From a virus, in the IMG/VR virus record IMGVR_UViG_3300018036_000047, positions 1 to 28,603 of that record: DNA of 28,603 nucleotides, one strand, 5' to 3'. The first letter of the stretch is position 1; each line of letters starts with the position of its first letter. A program made the translations under genes and the position numbers. The notes beneath the pieces were generated by a model that had not been told where the DNA came from, did no database searches, and was given only the letters and a program-made list of their open reading frames with translations. Below are positions 6,477 to 17,221 of this stretch, one piece after another.

Positions 6477-7991
6477 ATGGAATTAGATAACAACATATTA
6501 GCTCTAATTGAGCCTTCTATTCAACCTAAAAAGATTGAAACTCCTTCATTTGAAGAAGGTAATGGTGAGACTGATAAAGTTTCAAAGACATTCGGTATTG
6601 ACCAACCTGTAATATTTATGAATAATTATAAGTTTGAAAAAACCGATATTCTTCAATTTGAATTATCTAATAGCGGATTTTTACCAACATGTGACGTTAC
6701 TATAGTAGATACTAAAAATGTATTTGCCGTTGATGCTTTTCCTAGAGACGGCGATAATTTTACAGTTTTTATAAATTCAAAAAACGAGAGTACTTTTAAA
6801 TCCATTCACATGGATTTTGAAGTTTTAAATATAGCAGCAGTTCCTAAAAAAGAAGGAGATCCTAAAAAGATTTCAATAAGTGGAAGGGTAAAAATTCCTA
6901 GGATATTTTCTGAAAATTGTCAGTTTTTAGAAGAAAATACATCAATAGAACATATTAAAAAAGTTTCTGAAGAATTAGGATTAGGATTAGCTTCAAATAT
7001 AACCGAGACAACCGATCCTCAAGTTAGAATACAGGCATATATTAATTATGTTGATTTTATAGGAAATATTGTAAAGTCATCGTATGTTTCTGATGATTCT
7101 TTTCAAACCCACTTCGTAGATCCGTATTATTATTTAAATTTTATAGATGTAAACAGAATTTTAAATTCTAAAAATCTTTCATTAGATGAACTTCAAGACA
7201 ATATGACTTCTTTAAATACTAGCATGGCAGAAGAAAACCATACTGATGAAAGTATTGATTCAACTGAAACAAAACTTATTTTAACAAATAATGTACAGTT
7301 AAAACCAACTAATCAATATATTGCTAAGTATGAAATTGAAAATAAATCAAACATCGTAGTAGAAGCACATGGTCATTTTAGAGATGTTCAAATTTATGAT
7401 GACAATGCAGAGTCTCCAGATGAAAGATTAGATGAATTTACAGTTGAAGCACTTAGTGCTAATGCAGAAAATTTAAAAGATATTGAAGAACCTTTAAAAG
7501 GAAATAGAGAATCTGAAGAATATTCTAGCTTAATTAAACATAAATATATGGGAAGACAAGACGTTGGCACAGAAGGTTTAGGAAATGTCCACCAGAATCA
7601 TATATTTTCACAGCTACATAATATTAGAAATATTGATGAAACTCAAAAATTAAAGCTAAAAATAACTTTAGAATCTTTTAACCCATCTCTTTATAGATTT
7701 CAAAAAATACCAGTACTTCTATATCACACGGATTCAAGAGCAATTAAAGGTGCCCAAAATCTAGAAGAAGCAAAAAAAGATAAAGGATTTACAGATTCTA
7801 GTGTAGATATTCCAAAAAGTGACGAAAAAGAACCAGATCAAATGCTAGACCAATTTCTTTCTGGTTACTATTTAATAGAATCAATTGATATTGTATATAG
7901 AATGAAAAGAAGTAACTTTTATCAAGAAGTTACATTAATTAGAAGGGAATGGCCGGCAAGAATGTCTGCAGTAAATTCAATAAATACATAA
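6477..7991 (+). CDS. gp27-like baseplate hub protein
   Basis: 504 residues, longer than T4 gp27 (391). The N-terminal half has the beta-rich pattern of hub/VgrG-type domains (DILQFELSNSGFLPTCDVTIVD, about 60-81). The C-terminal part has two strands typical of this group: LKLKITLESFNPSLYRFQKI and, at the end, YYLIESIDIVYR followed by FYQEVTLIRREWPA. In T4 the gp27 trimer forms the hub that joins the tube to the gp5 spike. An acidic, disordered-looking insert lies around 235-265 (SMAEENHTDESIDSTE). Its place directly after the LysM-like gene and before the gp5-OB gene fits. Identification is by pattern and context, not by alignment. Confidence 0.65.
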   Translation: MELDNNILALIEPSIQPKKIETPSFEEGNGETDKVSKTFGIDQPVIFMNNYKFEKTDILQFELSNSGFLPTCDVTIVDTKNVFAVDAFPRDGDNFTVFINSKNESTFKSIHMDFEVLNIAAVPKKEGDPKKISISGRVKIPRIFSENCQFLEENTSIEHIKKVSEELGLGLASNITETTDPQVRIQAYINYVDFIGNIVKSSYVSDDSFQTHFVDPYYYLNFIDVNRILNSKNLSLDELQDNMTSLNTSMAEENHTDESIDSTETKLILTNNVQLKPTNQYIAKYEIENKSNIVVEAHGHFRDVQIYDDNAESPDERLDEFTVEALSANAENLKDIEEPLKGNRESEEYSSLIKHKYMGRQDVGTEGLGNVHQNHIFSQLHNIRNIDETQKLKLKITLESFNPSLYRFQKIPVLLYHTDSRAIKGAQNLEEAKKDKGFTDSSVDIPKSDEKEPDQMLDQFLSGYYLIESIDIVYRMKRSNFYQEVTLIRREWPARMSAVNSINT

Positions 7992-11509: not shown

Positions 11510-12793
11510 ATGTCAGAACAACAACGTAAAAGGATTACTACCTTAGATAAGGGATCCTTAGTATTAGAAGAAAAGTCTACTTCTAACGTAATCGAACAAA
11601 AGACTGAAGAAGAAAATTGGCTAACTCCTGAAGGAGATTTTGACTGGGAGGCATATGAAGCAACATGTATTACCAGGACTCGCACGCCAAATCCACACAT
11701 TAAAACTAACGGAAGAGATAAAGTTTTTTCAAGAGAACCATATGCTCAACAGCTATATGATACCTATTCAGCGCACGAAGATTCAATTAACCTAAGAACA
11801 ATTATTAATTTAGGAGACATTGTTGATGGAAAAATATATGGTGTGAGTGAACATTGGATGACTGTTGATGTCAGTTATCGAGAAATGGTTTACGTAAAGC
11901 TTTCAAAAGAACCTGGATCGGTTTTAGAAGATTATAAGCCAGGTGATGAAGTTGCAGTATTAATCACTGATCCTGGAAATACAGGAGTTAATTCGATGGT
12001 TATTGGTTCTATTTCTGGAGGAATGAAGCAAAAAGTATTCATAGATCTTCAGGCTGGCATTGATACCGCAGATACTGCATGGGTTGGTAAAGTTTCACAT
12101 ATGATTGAAAATGGAGGTTATATTGTTAATATCCAGGGAGTTGAATGTTTTATGCCAGGTTCTCTTGCCGGAATTAATAAATTACATGATTTTGAGTCAA
12201 TTATCGGCGAAGAATTATATGTTGTTCCTGTTAGTTTTTCAAATGAACGTGGAACAATTGTAGTTTCTCATAGAAAATACCTACAGGCGATGATTCCTAC
12301 AGAAATAGATAATCTTAAAGCTGATATTGAAAATAAGCAAACTGGATCTGTTACTGGAACTGCTAAATATGGTGTATTTGTTGAATTTAATAATTGTTTA
12401 ACTGGAATGATCCATATAAATGATTTAGATGAAGAAACTTTAAAGAACTTTAAATCTAGACAAATTAAACCAGGAGATTCTGTAGAATTTTGGGTAAAAG
12501 ATATTATTAGTAATTCTAAGATTACTTTAAGCCAAAAGGCCGAGACGATTAACAATCCCTGGAAAGATATAGAAAAAAGATTTAAAATTCCATGTGTTGT
12601 AGAAGCCAAAGTAAAAACTAAAAAAGATTATGGTATTTTTATAACCGTAGAAGAAGGTTTGGTTGGATTATTACACGTTAGTGAATTGCCAGATGGTATC
12701 ATAGATCTTTATAACTCGGGAGATTCCATAACTGTACAAATAAGTAGAGTCGATAAAGATTCTCAAAAGATCTTCTTAAAACTTCCTGAATAA
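11510..12793 (+). CDS. Phage ribosomal-protein-S1-like protein with four S1 domains
   Basis: 427 residues with four S1 RNA-binding (OB-fold) repeats at about 98-168, 190-258, 277-345 and 360-427. Clear signatures are GYIVNIQGVECFMPGSLAG (repeat 2), KYGVFVEFNNCLTGMIHIND (repeat 3) and DYGIFITVEEGLVGLLHVSE (repeat 4). The N-terminal 97 residues carry FDWEAYE (44-50), and NNPWKDIEKRFKI lies before repeat 4. Both resemble host S1 of Bacteroidota (FDWxxxE at the start; PW-linkers between repeats), which usually has about six repeats. S1 binds mRNA and, on the 30S subunit, brings leaders to the ribosome. The phage copy may steer host ribosomes to its SD-less late mRNAs or protect RNA. It has its own candidate promoter and is not an obvious virion protein, though a virion role is not excluded. 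Confidence 0.85.
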   Translation: MSEQQRKRITTLDKGSLVLEEKSTSNVIEQKTEEENWLTPEGDFDWEAYEATCITRTRTPNPHIKTNGRDKVFSREPYAQQLYDTYSAHEDSINLRTIINLGDIVDGKIYGVSEHWMTVDVSYREMVYVKLSKEPGSVLEDYKPGDEVAVLITDPGNTGVNSMVIGSISGGMKQKVFIDLQAGIDTADTAWVGKVSHMIENGGYIVNIQGVECFMPGSLAGINKLHDFESIIGEELYVVPVSFSNERGTIVVSHRKYLQAMIPTEIDNLKADIENKQTGSVTGTAKYGVFVEFNNCLTGMIHINDLDEETLKNFKSRQIKPGDSVEFWVKDIISNSKITLSQKAETINNPWKDIEKRFKIPCVVEAKVKTKKDYGIFITVEEGLVGLLHVSELPDGIIDLYNSGDSITVQISRVDKDSQKIFLKLPE

Positions 12794-12799
12794 GTTCAC

Positions 12800-12847
12800 T
12801 CAACTACTTATGATATATACAATAGAGTATAATATCATATTAGTTGA
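12800..12847 (+). promoter_or_regulatory. Candidate late promoter within an interrupted inverted repeat
   Basis: GATATATA lies at 12812-12819, followed by TAGAGTATA (12823-12831), which also occurs at 26460-26468. The outer arms TCAACTA (12800-12806) and TAGTTGA (12841-12847) pair, and the inner arms TATGATAT (12809-12816) and ATATCATA (12832-12839) pair, separated by a 2-by-1 mismatch. The right arm reaches the A of the next gene's ATG. Confidence 0.45.
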
Positions 12848-14157
12848 TGCAAACATTAAATAAAAATTCAGATAGAAATTCAATACTCAATGCTTCTCAA
12901 ATAGGCGTTGAGTTTGAATTCTACTCAAATCACGATCTAGAAGAGACCAGAGATATGCTCAAGGTTCTTTTAGGTCGTGATATTCGTATTGAGACCAAGG
13001 CTCACTCTGACTTTCAGCCAGACGAAAAAACATTTAAAATAGAGCCCGACATGAGCGGGGGTAAAGGTCTAATTGAGTTAGTCACTGGAGCAGTACCATA
13101 TCGAAACGCTAGAATTATAATAATTAAAATGCTAGCATGGATTAGAGAAAATGGATATACTACAGAAAGATCATCAATCCATTTAAATTTATCATTCCAA
13201 AAACACTCATTGGAAGATAAAAATATGATTTCAAGAATGAATACTTTAAAATTTATTCTTGATTTTAATGAAGATCAAGTATACAAATTCTTTCCTAATA
13301 GAAAAGATTCTATATATGCCAAATCTATTAAGTGGATTATGCCAAAAAATGAATCATTTTATTTTGATAGCTCTCAAATTTCCCATAATAATTTTAATTT
13401 TCCAAATACTAAATATTATGGAATAAACTTTGATAAGAAAGTAAAAAATTATCTTGAGTTTAGATATATTGGAGGAAAAGACTACGAACATAGACAAGAA
13501 GATATTTTATATCTTCTTGAGAGATTTATTGTTCAAATTTGGAAGTCATGTTCAGACTTTAATTTTACAGAAGAAAATAGATTAGAATTAAAAAAGATTC
13601 TAAATAAGAATTTACCATATCGAAGCATATTAGCAAGTCATAAAAATATTAAGAAGTATTTTCCAGATATTCATATAATGGTTGATCTACAAGAAATAGA
13701 TGCTATTATTGAAATGCAGTGGGGTAGAATTAAAAATAGAATTGTCGATATTATATCTTTGGGAGGTTTAACAAAGGGTATTATTAATTATGATTCAGAT
13801 ATATCAAGACTTCAGATTAAAGATGGCGAATTTCCAGTGTGTTACGAGCTTAAAGATGTAGATTTAGTAGATTGTATAGTAGATGGTAATGTATTTCAAT
13901 CTGATTTTCATAATTGTAAGGTAGATAAATCAACATTAGAAAAATGTAATTTATACCAAAGTACTGAAATTTCTAATTCTAAAATAAAGTCATCATATTT
14001 TCATGGTAGTTGCACTGCAAAAAATTGCTACATATTTGGTACTGATGGCGTATTTAAAGGAAGAATGATTGGCGGTATTTTTAGAGAAGGAATGATTGAT
14101 GATTACGCAAGATTTGAAGATGCGGAAATTGTCGTAAGTAAAAAAATAAAATCTTAA
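12847..14157 (+). CDS. Amidoligase-like enzyme with C-terminal pentapeptide-like repeats
   Basis: 436 residues from the ATG at 12847 (a TTG three bases earlier is less likely). The N-terminal domain matches the amidoligase (glutamine-synthetase-like COOH-NH2 ligase) pattern: IGVEFEFY at 19-26 with acidic E22 and E24, IEPDMSGG then IELVTGAVPY (65-85), SIHLNLSF (110-117), and a later LEFRYIGG near 202-210. Family members join a carboxylate to an amine with ATP, making peptide-like bonds on proteins or small molecules. Residues about 335-400 form a different unit of five-residue steps with V/F/L/I at regular places (VDGNV FQSDF HNCKV DKSTL EKCNL), which predicts a right-handed beta helix. It follows the S1-like gene and is followed after one base by wedge-module genes. 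The substrate is unknown. Confidence 0.65.
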   Translation: MQTLNKNSDRNSILNASQIGVEFEFYSNHDLEETRDMLKVLLGRDIRIETKAHSDFQPDEKTFKIEPDMSGGKGLIELVTGAVPYRNARIIIIKMLAWIRENGYTTERSSIHLNLSFQKHSLEDKNMISRMNTLKFILDFNEDQVYKFFPNRKDSIYAKSIKWIMPKNESFYFDSSQISHNNFNFPNTKYYGINFDKKVKNYLEFRYIGGKDYEHRQEDILYLLERFIVQIWKSCSDFNFTEENRLELKKILNKNLPYRSILASHKNIKKYFPDIHIMVDLQEIDAIIEMQWGRIKNRIVDIISLGGLTKGIINYDSDISRLQIKDGEFPVCYELKDVDLVDCIVDGNVFQSDFHNCKVDKSTLEKCNLYQSTEISNSKIKSSYFHGSCTAKNCYIFGTDGVFKGRMIGGIFREGMIDDYARFEDAEIVVSKKIKS

Positions 14158-14158
14158 A

Positions 14159-15001
14159 ATGGGAGAAATTAGAAGTGGTAGTGTTGGTAGTGCTAGTACT
14201 CCTAGGGATTTTGGAAATGATTGTTTAAATTCGTTTCTAGATGAACTAGGCGATGAAATTACAGGAGCATGTATGGTGCCTGTAAATTTACCAACCCGCG
14301 AAATTGTTAACATTATTAATAGGGCTAAAAAGTGGTTCTATAAAAACTATGAATATTCTGTTCAAGAGAACTTTTATCATGTTCCGCATGAAGTTTTTGA
14401 AAGTGAATATTTTAAATCGCACAGGGCTTTACATCTCCCAGGTGCTGATAGCTCAGGAGCTGGTGAAGTATTTTCTATATTTGGACTTTGGGATTTAAGT
14501 AGTGGTTGGCAGAATGCGGGATCTAGTTTAGATTTTAGATTTAGTGCAGAAGGAGACTTTACTCTAGATAGAATGTTATTTAAAAATGCATATGAAGGTT
14601 CAGGACCTGCTGAGTTTGCTGAGCAGCTTCAATACTATGTTGTTAATAGGTCGCTAATGGATTTATCTAGACAAATTCTAGAGAATCCAATCTCATTTGC
14701 ATATTCACAATTGAACGGTGAAATTAAATTTATGGGTGACACTCCTAAGGGTGATGTTGTTCTACAGGTGTATGAGACTATCGAAGATTGTGCATTGTTT
14801 AATGATGAAATATTTTTTAGATATGTCAGTGCTCGAGTAAAACAATCATTGGGCGCTAAGCTTGGAATATTTAAATTCGCACTACCTGGAAATGTTGACT
14901 TTGATTATGATGCTATTAAATCAATGGGAGACGAAGAGCTAGCTGAAATTAAAGAAGAAATAAAAGGAGATGAAGGCGTTGACTGGATGTTCCACAGCTA
15001 A
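14159..15001 (+). CDS. Conserved-type phage virion/assembly protein, 280 residues
   Basis: It starts one base after the amidoligase stop (CTTAAAATG). I cannot name it. After a Ser/Gly-rich N-terminus, residues about 40-70 read PVNLPTREIVNIINRAKKWF, a helix-turn pattern seen near the start of many unnamed structural proteins of large myophages. The centre is aromatic and Gly-rich (VFSIFGLWDLSSGW); then LQYYVVNRSLMDLSRQI, a beta segment (VVLQVYETIEDCALFND), a helical block IFFRYVSARVKQSLGAKLG, and an acidic C-terminus (DEELAEIKEEIKGDEG). Its place just before gp25 suggests a baseplate or neck protein or an assembly factor. The description is from sequence; the role is inference. Confidence 0.55.
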   Translation: MGEIRSGSVGSASTPRDFGNDCLNSFLDELGDEITGACMVPVNLPTREIVNIINRAKKWFYKNYEYSVQENFYHVPHEVFESEYFKSHRALHLPGADSSGAGEVFSIFGLWDLSSGWQNAGSSLDFRFSAEGDFTLDRMLFKNAYEGSGPAEFAEQLQYYVVNRSLMDLSRQILENPISFAYSQLNGEIKFMGDTPKGDVVLQVYETIEDCALFNDEIFFRYVSARVKQSLGAKLGIFKFALPGNVDFDYDAIKSMGDEELAEIKEEIKGDEGVDWMFHS

Positions 15002-15017
15002 TTATAATAAATAGAAT

Positions 15018-15374
15018 ATGGAACTGTATATCAAAACACTCGGCGATCCTAATTTTAATCCTAGGGAACCTCATATAAAAAATGAGGTTAATCAATTGAT
15101 TGCTCAAATAGAAACTATCTTATTTACGAATAAGGGAGAGGTTCTTGGGGATGTTGATTTTGGATGCAGTTTAAATGATATGATATATGAATTAAATGCA
15201 AACGAATTTGCTATAAAAAATGAGATTGATAAGCAAATTTCTACATATTGCCCTTTAGCAACTAAATATAAAGTTGATGCTAAAGTTTCTTTTGTTAGAG
15301 GGCAGGTTAGAGATGAGGCATATATAGACATAACCATTGATAGTCAATATATGGTCACTGTTGCAACTACTTAA
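15018..15374 (+). CDS. gp25-like baseplate wedge protein
   Basis: 118 residues (T4 gp25 has 132). It has the gp25/GpW build: a helix (HIKNEVNQLIAQIETILFT), then GEVLGDVDFG at 40-49, LNDMIYELNANEFAIKNEI, and C-terminal strands (KYKVDAKVSFVRG, EAYIDITIDSQYMVTV). In contractile tails gp25 links the wedge core to the first sheath ring. It is followed after 17 bases by the gp6-like gene, the same order as in T4 and in contractile injection systems, which strengthens the call. The leader is AT-rich with AATAAATAG. A small hairpin spans codons 17-24. Confidence 0.8.
   Translation: MELYIKTLGDPNFNPREPHIKNEVNQLIAQIETILFTNKGEVLGDVDFGCSLNDMIYELNANEFAIKNEIDKQISTYCPLATKYKVDAKVSFVRGQVRDEAYIDITIDSQYMVTVATT
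15067..15089 (+). repeat. Perfect 8-bp inverted repeat in the gp25-like gene
   Basis: AACCTCAT (15067-15074) and ATGAGGTT (15082-15089) pair perfectly around a seven-base A-rich loop, near the beginning of the coding region. It may fold in mRNA. It is too weak and lacks a T-run, so it is not a terminator. Confidence 0.6.
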
Positions 15375-15391
15375 AAAATTAAAAAAATTAA

Positions 15392-17221
15392 ATGGCTGAA
15401 TTAAAGTTTTTAACAAAGACGAGAGCAGTAGCTGGTCAAATATATGATGATACCAGAACATATATTGCTAGAGTGTATAAGAGATCTAATACGCTGTTCT
15501 CTAATGCTTCACCATTTGCTCAAATACTAAGAGTATTATCTGAACTTTCGGAATTAATAATGTTCTATATTGAAGATTCTACAGTTGAGCAAAACATATA
15601 TACTGCCCAACAGCCAGAATCTATTTATGGTTTAGCTAGACTTGCTGGACATGATCCTACTAGAGGGTTTGCAGCAACTGGTGAGATTTCAATTAGATTA
15701 AATATGCAATCTGGTGAATTTACTAAAATAGCTGGAGATGGTATTACAATTCCAGCAAATGCTGAACTTAAATTTGATGCAAATGGATTGTCTTATATGT
15801 TAAGAACTTCTAAAGATTCGTTTAGAATTTCAAAATCTCAAGTACAGGCAATTAAGGGTGTTATCGTTCAAGGAAAGGCAGAAACTCAAACACTAACAGG
15901 TACTGGAGAATCTTTTCAAACATATAATGTTCAAGTTTCTGGTAAAACTGATCATAATTTAATTAAAGTTTCAGTAAATGGAGAACAGTGGACAAAATTT
16001 AATTCTGTCTATGAAATGAATGCTGGAGATAAAGGATTTATTGTAAAAACAGGAATATCTGGAGGATTAGATGTTTATTTTGGTACTAACAATTTTGGAA
16101 TGATTCCTCAACTAGGATCAACTATTGAAATTGAGTATATAATACATCAAGGTGCTGAAGGTAATTTAGAAGATGCTGAAGACCTTACTATTAAATGGAT
16201 AGATGAAGGCAGAGATGGTTCTGGTAACTTCTTTGATTTAAATGAACTATTAACAGTAGAAATAACTTCTTCTCCTAAAATGGGAGCTGAGCCAGAATCT
16301 ACAGAATTTACAAAAATAATAGCACCGCTTTCATCTAAATCATTCGTGTTAGCAACTCCTGATAATTATGAATACTTTTTATCTAGATATGGTTTATTTT
16401 CATATATAGACGCATACAATACTAGCGATGATGGCTACATAGATGATGACAATGTTATTTACATATTTGCAGTTCCTGATATTAGAAAAAAACTATCAAA
16501 AAACCAAGATTATTTTTCTATGCCTGAGCAGGAGATGTTTTTTGATCAGTCAGAATATGATAAAATGACCGATGTGTTACAGGAAAGTGGACAAATGATG
16601 GTTACTACTGAGGTTAAATTTGTTAAACCTAAAGTTAGAAAATATACAATGGATATTTCTGTTAGATATTTTGAAGGTTTTAGCAAAGAAGATATTTTTA
16701 ATGACATCCGATCTGCAGTTTCTAACTACTTATTAAATGTTACTCGAAGAGATAAACTTCCTAAGAGTGATATTATCTATATTCTAGAAGAAGTTGATGG
16801 CGTAGATTCTGTTAATGTTCAATTTAGATCTGAAACTGAAGAAACTGCTAGAAGGATTGGATATTATGAATCGATAACAACTACAATTGCAGCGCAAGAG
16901 CCTGTTGTTCTAGAAGATATTGGCAATGGTAAACAAAAGTATATCTTCTTTAAGAAAATTAATGAGGTTGAAAAGATTCAAATTGGACCGGGAGACTCTA
17001 TACCATCGGATATCGCAGGTTTAGATCAATGGGGAGATATTATTATGGATAAAGAAGAAGTTGCAGTATTTAGAGGAGGCTGGTTAGATAGAGATGGAGA
17101 CGAAATTAAAGATGTTCCTTCTATAAATGAAGAAGCAAGTCTTTCTGTTACATTTGATGATGTACCAGTTCCTAGAACTATTTATACAAGAACTCAAGCT
17201 GGAAATAGAAAATCACTATAA
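15392..17221 (+). CDS. gp6-like baseplate wedge protein (baseplate J family)
   Basis: 609 residues (T4 gp6 has 660). The order is that of gp6/baseplate J proteins: a helical N-terminus (PFAQILRVLSELSELIMFYI, then QQPESIYGLARLAGHDPTRG), a beta-rich middle (ISIRLNMQSGEF, ITIPANAELKFDANG), and a C-terminal region starting PDNYEYFLSRYG, followed by RKYTMDISVRYFEGFSKEDI and SAVSNYLLNVTRRDKLPKSD. The segment IIYILEEVDGVDSVNVQF is typical of J proteins. In T4, gp6 dimers form the inner ring that holds wedges together. Its position after gp25 and before the gp7-like gene matches T4. The stop overlaps the next start (TAATG). Confidence 0.8.
   Translation: MAELKFLTKTRAVAGQIYDDTRTYIARVYKRSNTLFSNASPFAQILRVLSELSELIMFYIEDSTVEQNIYTAQQPESIYGLARLAGHDPTRGFAATGEISIRLNMQSGEFTKIAGDGITIPANAELKFDANGLSYMLRTSKDSFRISKSQVQAIKGVIVQGKAETQTLTGTGESFQTYNVQVSGKTDHNLIKVSVNGEQWTKFNSVYEMNAGDKGFIVKTGISGGLDVYFGTNNFGMIPQLGSTIEIEYIIHQGAEGNLEDAEDLTIKWIDEGRDGSGNFFDLNELLTVEITSSPKMGAEPESTEFTKIIAPLSSKSFVLATPDNYEYFLSRYGLFSYIDAYNTSDDGYIDDDNVIYIFAVPDIRKKLSKNQDYFSMPEQEMFFDQSEYDKMTDVLQESGQMMVTTEVKFVKPKVRKYTMDISVRYFEGFSKEDIFNDIRSAVSNYLLNVTRRDKLPKSDIIYILEEVDGVDSVNVQFRSETEETARRIGYYESITTTIAAQEPVVLEDIGNGKQKYIFFKKINEVEKIQIGPGDSIPSDIAGLDQWGDIIMDKEEVAVFRGGWLDRDGDEIKDVPSINEEASLSVTFDDVPVPRTIYTRTQAGNRKSL

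Follow-up and report, generated by a model that had tools for sequence, protein, structure and literature searches.

The window, a 28,603-nucleotide (28.6-kb) stretch of DNA, is a fragment of a myovirus-like phage with a tail and baseplate cluster on one strand. The cluster runs in the order LysM/gp53-like protein, hub-like protein, gp5-like spike, S1-domain protein, the protein under study (P0001), neck protein, gp25 and gp6/J, after which come large proteins. The features on which the analysis bears are as follows.

11510..12793, + strand: upstream neighbour with S1 RNA-binding domains, 427 aa (Pfam S1, E=2.9e-23)
12847..14157, + strand: whole gene, amidoligase-like/beta-helix fusion, 436 aa (P0001; open reading frame and translation; AlphaFold2 mean pLDDT 90.9, pTM 0.85)
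12847..13764, + strand: catalytic domain, residues 1-306, with a glutamine-synthetase-like fold (separate AlphaFold2 model; best PDB matches are glutamine synthetases)
12904..12921, + strand: GVEFEF, residues 20-25; E22 and E24 predicted metal ligands (G20, E22 and E24 in 90/90 homologs)
13048..13086, + strand: DMSGGKGLIELVT, residues 68-80; D68 and E77 predicted metal ligands (D68, S70, G72, E77 and T80 in 90/90)
13174..13197, + strand: SIHLNLSF, residues 110-117; H112 predicted metal ligand (H112, N114 and S116 in 90/90)
13411..13431, + strand: KYYGINF, residues 189-195; matched by KYSALNL, at the same position and spacing, in phage proteins annotated as amidoligases
13453..13464, + strand: LEFR, residues 203-206; predicted metal ligand (E204) and predicted phosphate/substrate arginine (R206), both in 90/90
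13774..14136, + strand: pentapeptide-type beta-helix, about residues 310-430, pentads clearest at 317-391 (AlphaFold2 strands, pentapeptide match)
14159..15001, + strand: downstream neighbour, a neck or head-tail adaptor-like protein (PHROG 211, E=8.7e-9)
15018..17221, + strand: two baseplate wedge genes, gp25-like and gp6/J-like, in the operon of P0001 (Pfam GPW_gp25, PHROG baseplate wedge)

The gene is a single complete open reading frame with an ATG start and a stop at 14157; an in-frame TTG at 12844 merely extends the mechanical reading frame. P0001 alone matches almost nothing in Pfam, PHROGs or NCBIfam, and its orthologs are required for annotation. An AlphaFold2 model was computed from an alignment of 17 family members, and the catalytic domain modelled alone reaches a pLDDT of 91.4 and a pTM of 0.87. 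The top PDB matches found by Foldseek are glutamine synthetases and gamma-glutamylcysteine ligases, with a best E of 6.4e-4 for the full-length protein and 1.6e-4 for the catalytic domain alone. These matches have low TM-scores (0.26-0.41) and the kinship to these enzymes is therefore remote. Matches among viral models (BFVD) are closer: 44 fall at E<=1e-3, including many that carry the name amidoligase, and models labelled "Amidoligase enzyme" match with E down to 2.9e-11. A0A6J5PQ40, which is uncharacterised and unannotated and comes from an uncultured Caudovirales phage, has the same architecture and matches over the full length (TM 0.84, 438 columns), with 23% identity.

An HMM search had been proposed as a check in the earlier note: Pfam Amidoligase_2 (PF12224, gathering cut-off 22 bits) is not reported for P0001 itself but exceeds the cut-off in two orthologs, L033 (26.9 bits, 52% identity to P0001) and L034 (26.3 bits, 44% identity), and matches below E=10 occur in 5 of the 17 family members; Pentapeptide_4 remains below its cut-off in P0001. 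Comparison by hhalign of two family alignments with eight phage amidoligases finds the right register at only 0.4% and 3.4% probability, weak values attributable to the shallowness of both alignments. Together with the low TM-scores, this weak profile-profile signal makes any particular chemistry assigned to P0001 tentative.

Residue conservation was assessed in 90 sequences below 90% identity, drawn from 190 loci. None of the 90 has a substitution at G20, E22, E24, D68, S70, G72, E77, T80, H112, N114, S116, E204 or R206, nor at K189, Y190, G192 or N194. The four motifs from which the enzyme was originally recognised are all present, GVEFEF(Y) at residues 20-26, IEPDMSGG at 65-72, IELVTGAVPY at 76-85 and SIHLNLSF at 110-117, and they form the most conserved part of the family. 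Within IEPDMSGG, E66 varies (kept in 86/90) whereas D68 is invariant, so that the ligand is more likely to be D68 than E66. Glutamine synthetase has two metal sites built from Glu and His ligands, together with an E-x-R motif, and P0001 has the same pattern of acidic, His and E-x-R residues. By this analogy, E22, E24, D68, E77, H112 and E204 are expected to be metal ligands and R206 is the putative catalytic arginine.

Annotated Amidoligase_2 proteins of phage tf, LUZ24, phiEco32-like and RIO-1-like phages share the fold of P0001 in Foldseek comparisons and carry the motifs GxExE, DxS..E, H-x-[HN], KYxxxN[LF] and EFR in the same order. The ordered motifs of Amidoligase_2 are thus found in P0001, the second histidine of the HxH motif being asparagine (HxN) throughout its family. 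DMSGGKGLIELVT corresponds to DGSLRNGAEYI of the phage tf enzyme and SIHLNLSF to STHLHM of phage amidoligases, and EFR is identical. Spacing in P0001 and phage tf is nearly equal from D to H (44 and 45 residues), H to KY (77 and 76) and KY to EFR (15 and 16), whereas the stretch from GxExE to DxS is 25 residues longer in P0001 (46 against 21). P0001 differs from these phage enzymes in its C-terminal beta-helix, in its tail-gene context and in that no GATase-II or COOH-NH2 ligase partners were found. With glutamine synthetase and gamma-glutamylcysteine ligase it has the fold topology in common, but at a TM of 0.3-0.4 and about 10% identity, with a fused beta-helix; no counterpart of the N-terminal beta-grasp region of glutamine synthetase was recognised.

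The earlier note had also described a C-terminal run of five-residue steps. In P0001 alone this run is marginal: Pentapeptide_4 scores 18.3 bits (E=0.0024) against a cut-off of 38 bits, and a home-made shuffle test of pentad periodicity gives p=0.055. It is clear in the orthologs and in the model. Pentapeptide_4 matches LR756501 (E=5.6e-6), LR756504 (1.2e-4) and LR745206 (1.5e-4), the best ortholog score (26.8 bits) also lying below the cut-off, and the shuffle test gives p<=0.005 in four Mahaphage-size records. Strands extend throughout residues 310-424 of the model, and the C-terminus matches an Orpheovirus pentapeptide repeat protein in BFVD, with an rmsd of 2.1 A across 96 columns and a TM-score, taken on the target, of 0.72. 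These model-based comparisons support a fold predicted to be a right-handed quadrilateral beta-helix, with the five-residue steps also seen in pentapeptide repeat proteins such as MfpA, Qnr and those of phages and giant viruses. Unlike these proteins, the helix of P0001 is short, degenerate and fused behind an enzyme, and it shows no sign of gyrase or DNA mimicry. The match of one ortholog to HalA is best read as a common pentapeptide pattern. At least 125 residues are kept in the C-terminal region of all 90 homologs and the domain is never lost, indicating that the pairing is an old, fixed family architecture and not a recent fusion.

The central reading of the earlier note, an amidoligase-like enzyme fused to a pentapeptide-type beta-helix, has thus held up: fold, motifs, ortholog Pfam matches and invariant putative metal and catalytic residues agree on the enzyme, and the helix is present in the model and as an extra domain in every homolog. 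Both checks that might have overturned it came out in its favour, since the predicted fold is glutamine-synthetase-like (AlphaFold2, Foldseek) and the acidic, His and Arg residues persist in all 90 homologs. This architecture is well supported, as is the likely catalytic competence of P0001; that it does catalyse, and with ATP, is what we infer. No published description of the amidoligase/beta-helix pairing or of its conserved place in a tail cluster was found in the open-licence papers covered, which do not include the 2009 amidoligase survey, and a 2026 jumbo-phage review does not mention amidoligases. Both domains are of known kinds; provisionally, it is their pairing and the place in the tail cluster that are new.

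The family is widespread in IMG/VR, with at least 561 confirmed candidate contigs in one scan. Among annotated phages, LR756500 (462 kb) and each of the five largest records (635-735 kb) have it as well, with identities of 33-42% along most of the protein. Al-Shayeb et al. (PMC7162821) describe five genomes of theirs above 634 kb as Mahaphages with predicted hosts in the Bacteroidetes, and the sizes of the five records agree with this. A scan of cellular-genome contigs with a few family peptide patterns gave no cellular relatives, and for the phage tf amidoligase no relatives turned up on plasmids. In the window, Shine-Dalgarno sequences precede 3 of 23 main reading frames against 13.6% at random positions, and are thus not enriched; the GC content is 32% and leaders are A-rich. 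These features fit a Bacteroidota-type host.

Other jumbo phages carry more distant amidoligase-like proteins. Salicola phage SCTP-2 gives a partial match to P0001 and encodes tandem divergent amidoligase-like proteins of 606 and 647 aa, annotated as hypothetical (gp124/gp125; L042:6960-10720). They share the domain but have a large insertion between GxExEF and H-x-S; the beta-helix is absent by sequence, no tail neighbours were recognised, and a search for viral relatives of gp125 found none. In Agrobacterium phage Atu_ph07, a different jumbo phage, AUZ94978 matches Amidoligase_2 above the cut-off (E=5.5e-8) and P0001 partially (270 columns); its gene adjoins head genes, 2.7 kb from the portal gene. 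Counting accessions, with the major capsid protein as gp215 and the portal as gp198, AUZ94978 is gp196 and, in this numbering, falls inside CDS 170-215, a region reported to be rich in virion proteins (PMC6102473).

Gene organisation differs between the near and the distant clade of the P0001 family. Near-clade loci keep the arrangement S1-amidoligase-neck-gp25-gp6/J with hardly any exception, and their S1-domain protein (11510-12793 in the window) is encoded within the tail operon. In one 212-kb contig (L037:6001-7309) the amidoligase gene lies in two overlapping frames, with a frameshift near 6611-6630, and the S1 gene is fragmented too, reflecting either decay or an assembly error. Distant-clade loci contain no S1 gene and vary in gene order and strand, yet 33 of 41 have a homolog of a tail, neck or baseplate protein within 5-6 kb. 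The background is at most about 20%, itself a rough and generous estimate that assumes a 640-kb genome with eleven structural genes, each isolated; the corresponding binomial value of 1e-16 is not a true probability because the loci are related. Four Mahaphage-size records have about 0.8, 2, 3 and 10.5 kb between the amidoligase gene and the closest tail gene, and in Mahaphages the amidoligase gene is often on the strand opposite the tail genes. In LR756500 it lies inside the tail cluster with an S1 gene directly upstream. A link with virion genes is thereby supported indirectly, by a tail-gene proximity that survives rearrangement.

The Mahaphage-size records also encode S1 proteins of about 360-410 aa, unlinked to the amidoligase gene. 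The protein adjoining the Mahaphage amidoligase (L044:6811-8799, L045:6826-9099, L142, L146) consists of an N-terminal tag followed by a start (HKDLDGVxSALA) that, judged from the motif only, may be DHH-phosphoesterase-like. Many otherwise unrelated huge-phage reading frames open with such a tag, approximately M-K-[YF]-x-x-[FY]-x-x-F-[ILV]-N-E, for example MKYIKEYSEFVNES and MKHLKRFKTFINES (loci L041, L043-L046, L050, L132, L135, L142, L146, L156-L158, L169, L170 and L209). It resembles the capsid-targeting N-terminus of T4 internal proteins and may mark head-packaged, injected proteins.

Several functions can be envisaged for P0001. Phage Amidoligase_2 enzymes of the tf, LUZ24 and phiEco32 types are encoded in cassettes together with a COOH-NH2 ligase and with GATase-II, ATP-grasp and GGACT proteins, and these cassettes are thought to alter peptidoglycan (PMC5498523, PMC10580990). 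Since the P0001 family has the motifs of these cassette enzymes, it might likewise alter peptide amides of the host cell wall, either to exclude superinfecting phages or, should it be carried in the virion, to assist entry. This is unlikely: COOH-NH2_lig and GATase_6 were found in 0 of 9 related phage records, the same searches being positive for both in the phage tf control, GGACT occurs in 3 of the 9, unlinked to the amidoligase gene, and P0001 is encoded among tail genes instead of within an early metabolic cassette. The nearest solved folds, glutamine synthetase and gamma-glutamylcysteine ligase, belong to small-molecule enzymes and would be compatible with P0001 making a small amide, gamma-glutamyl or similar, that feeds into nucleotide, DNA or redox chemistry, with the helix serving for oligomerisation. 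Such a role appears rather improbable given that metabolic neighbours are absent, that proximity to tail genes is kept across rearrangements and that the C-terminal domain is retained in every homolog.

Modification of the translation apparatus, in the manner of RimK acting on S6, is still less probable. The S1-domain protein encoded immediately upstream, as seen in the near clade and LR756500, would offer a substrate, as would a host ribosomal protein, and huge phages are known to carry S1 and other ribosomal proteins (PMC7162821). However, it is tail linkage that persists, S1 being unlinked in Mahaphage-size records and absent from distant loci. S1 C-termini vary (LPE, MPQ, VIM, IGA) and include no conserved RimK-type acidic tail, which speaks against the S1 protein as a RimK-like substrate. 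The ribosomal target named in the earlier note accordingly finds no support beyond the near-clade S1 neighbour, a linkage that Mahaphage-like relatives have lost. Finally, the position among structural genes might suggest a catalytically dead virion component using the fold as a structural block. Indeed, pentapeptide helices and glutamine-synthetase-like domains can act as scaffolds. There would be little reason for a scaffold to retain such ligands, however, and the invariance of all putative ligands and of R206 in 90 divergent sequences makes this the least credible of the four, and very unlikely.

The preferred reading, offered tentatively, is that P0001 modifies a tail or neck protein of the virion as an active Mg/ATP-dependent amidoligase for which the beta-helix is a docking platform. 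P0001 would most likely work during virion assembly. Its beta-helix would bind a subunit, or a sub-assembly, of the tail, neck or baseplate, and the catalytic domain would use ATP to phosphorylate a carboxylate, either an acidic side chain or a C-terminus. The activated carboxylate would then be coupled to an amine, which could be that of an amino acid, a peptide, a polyamine or a lysine, and the virion protein would thereby be tagged or cross-linked. The protein substrate, the docking role and the timing are inferred.

A more specific proposal, and a speculative one that is rather doubtful at present, is that P0001 represents a dedicated virion-protein ligase of huge phages, placing amino-acid tags or isopeptide cross-links in trans on tail or neck subunits under the guidance of the fused beta-helix. 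Capsid cross-linking of the HK97 type is autocatalytic, in contrast to the in-trans ligation envisaged here for the tail or neck. Amidoligases are widely annotated in phages, and in the literature covered their roles have so far been proposed and not shown. The maintenance of this subfamily in hundreds of huge-phage contigs, always fused to the helix and beside tail genes, suggests protein modification in virion assembly.
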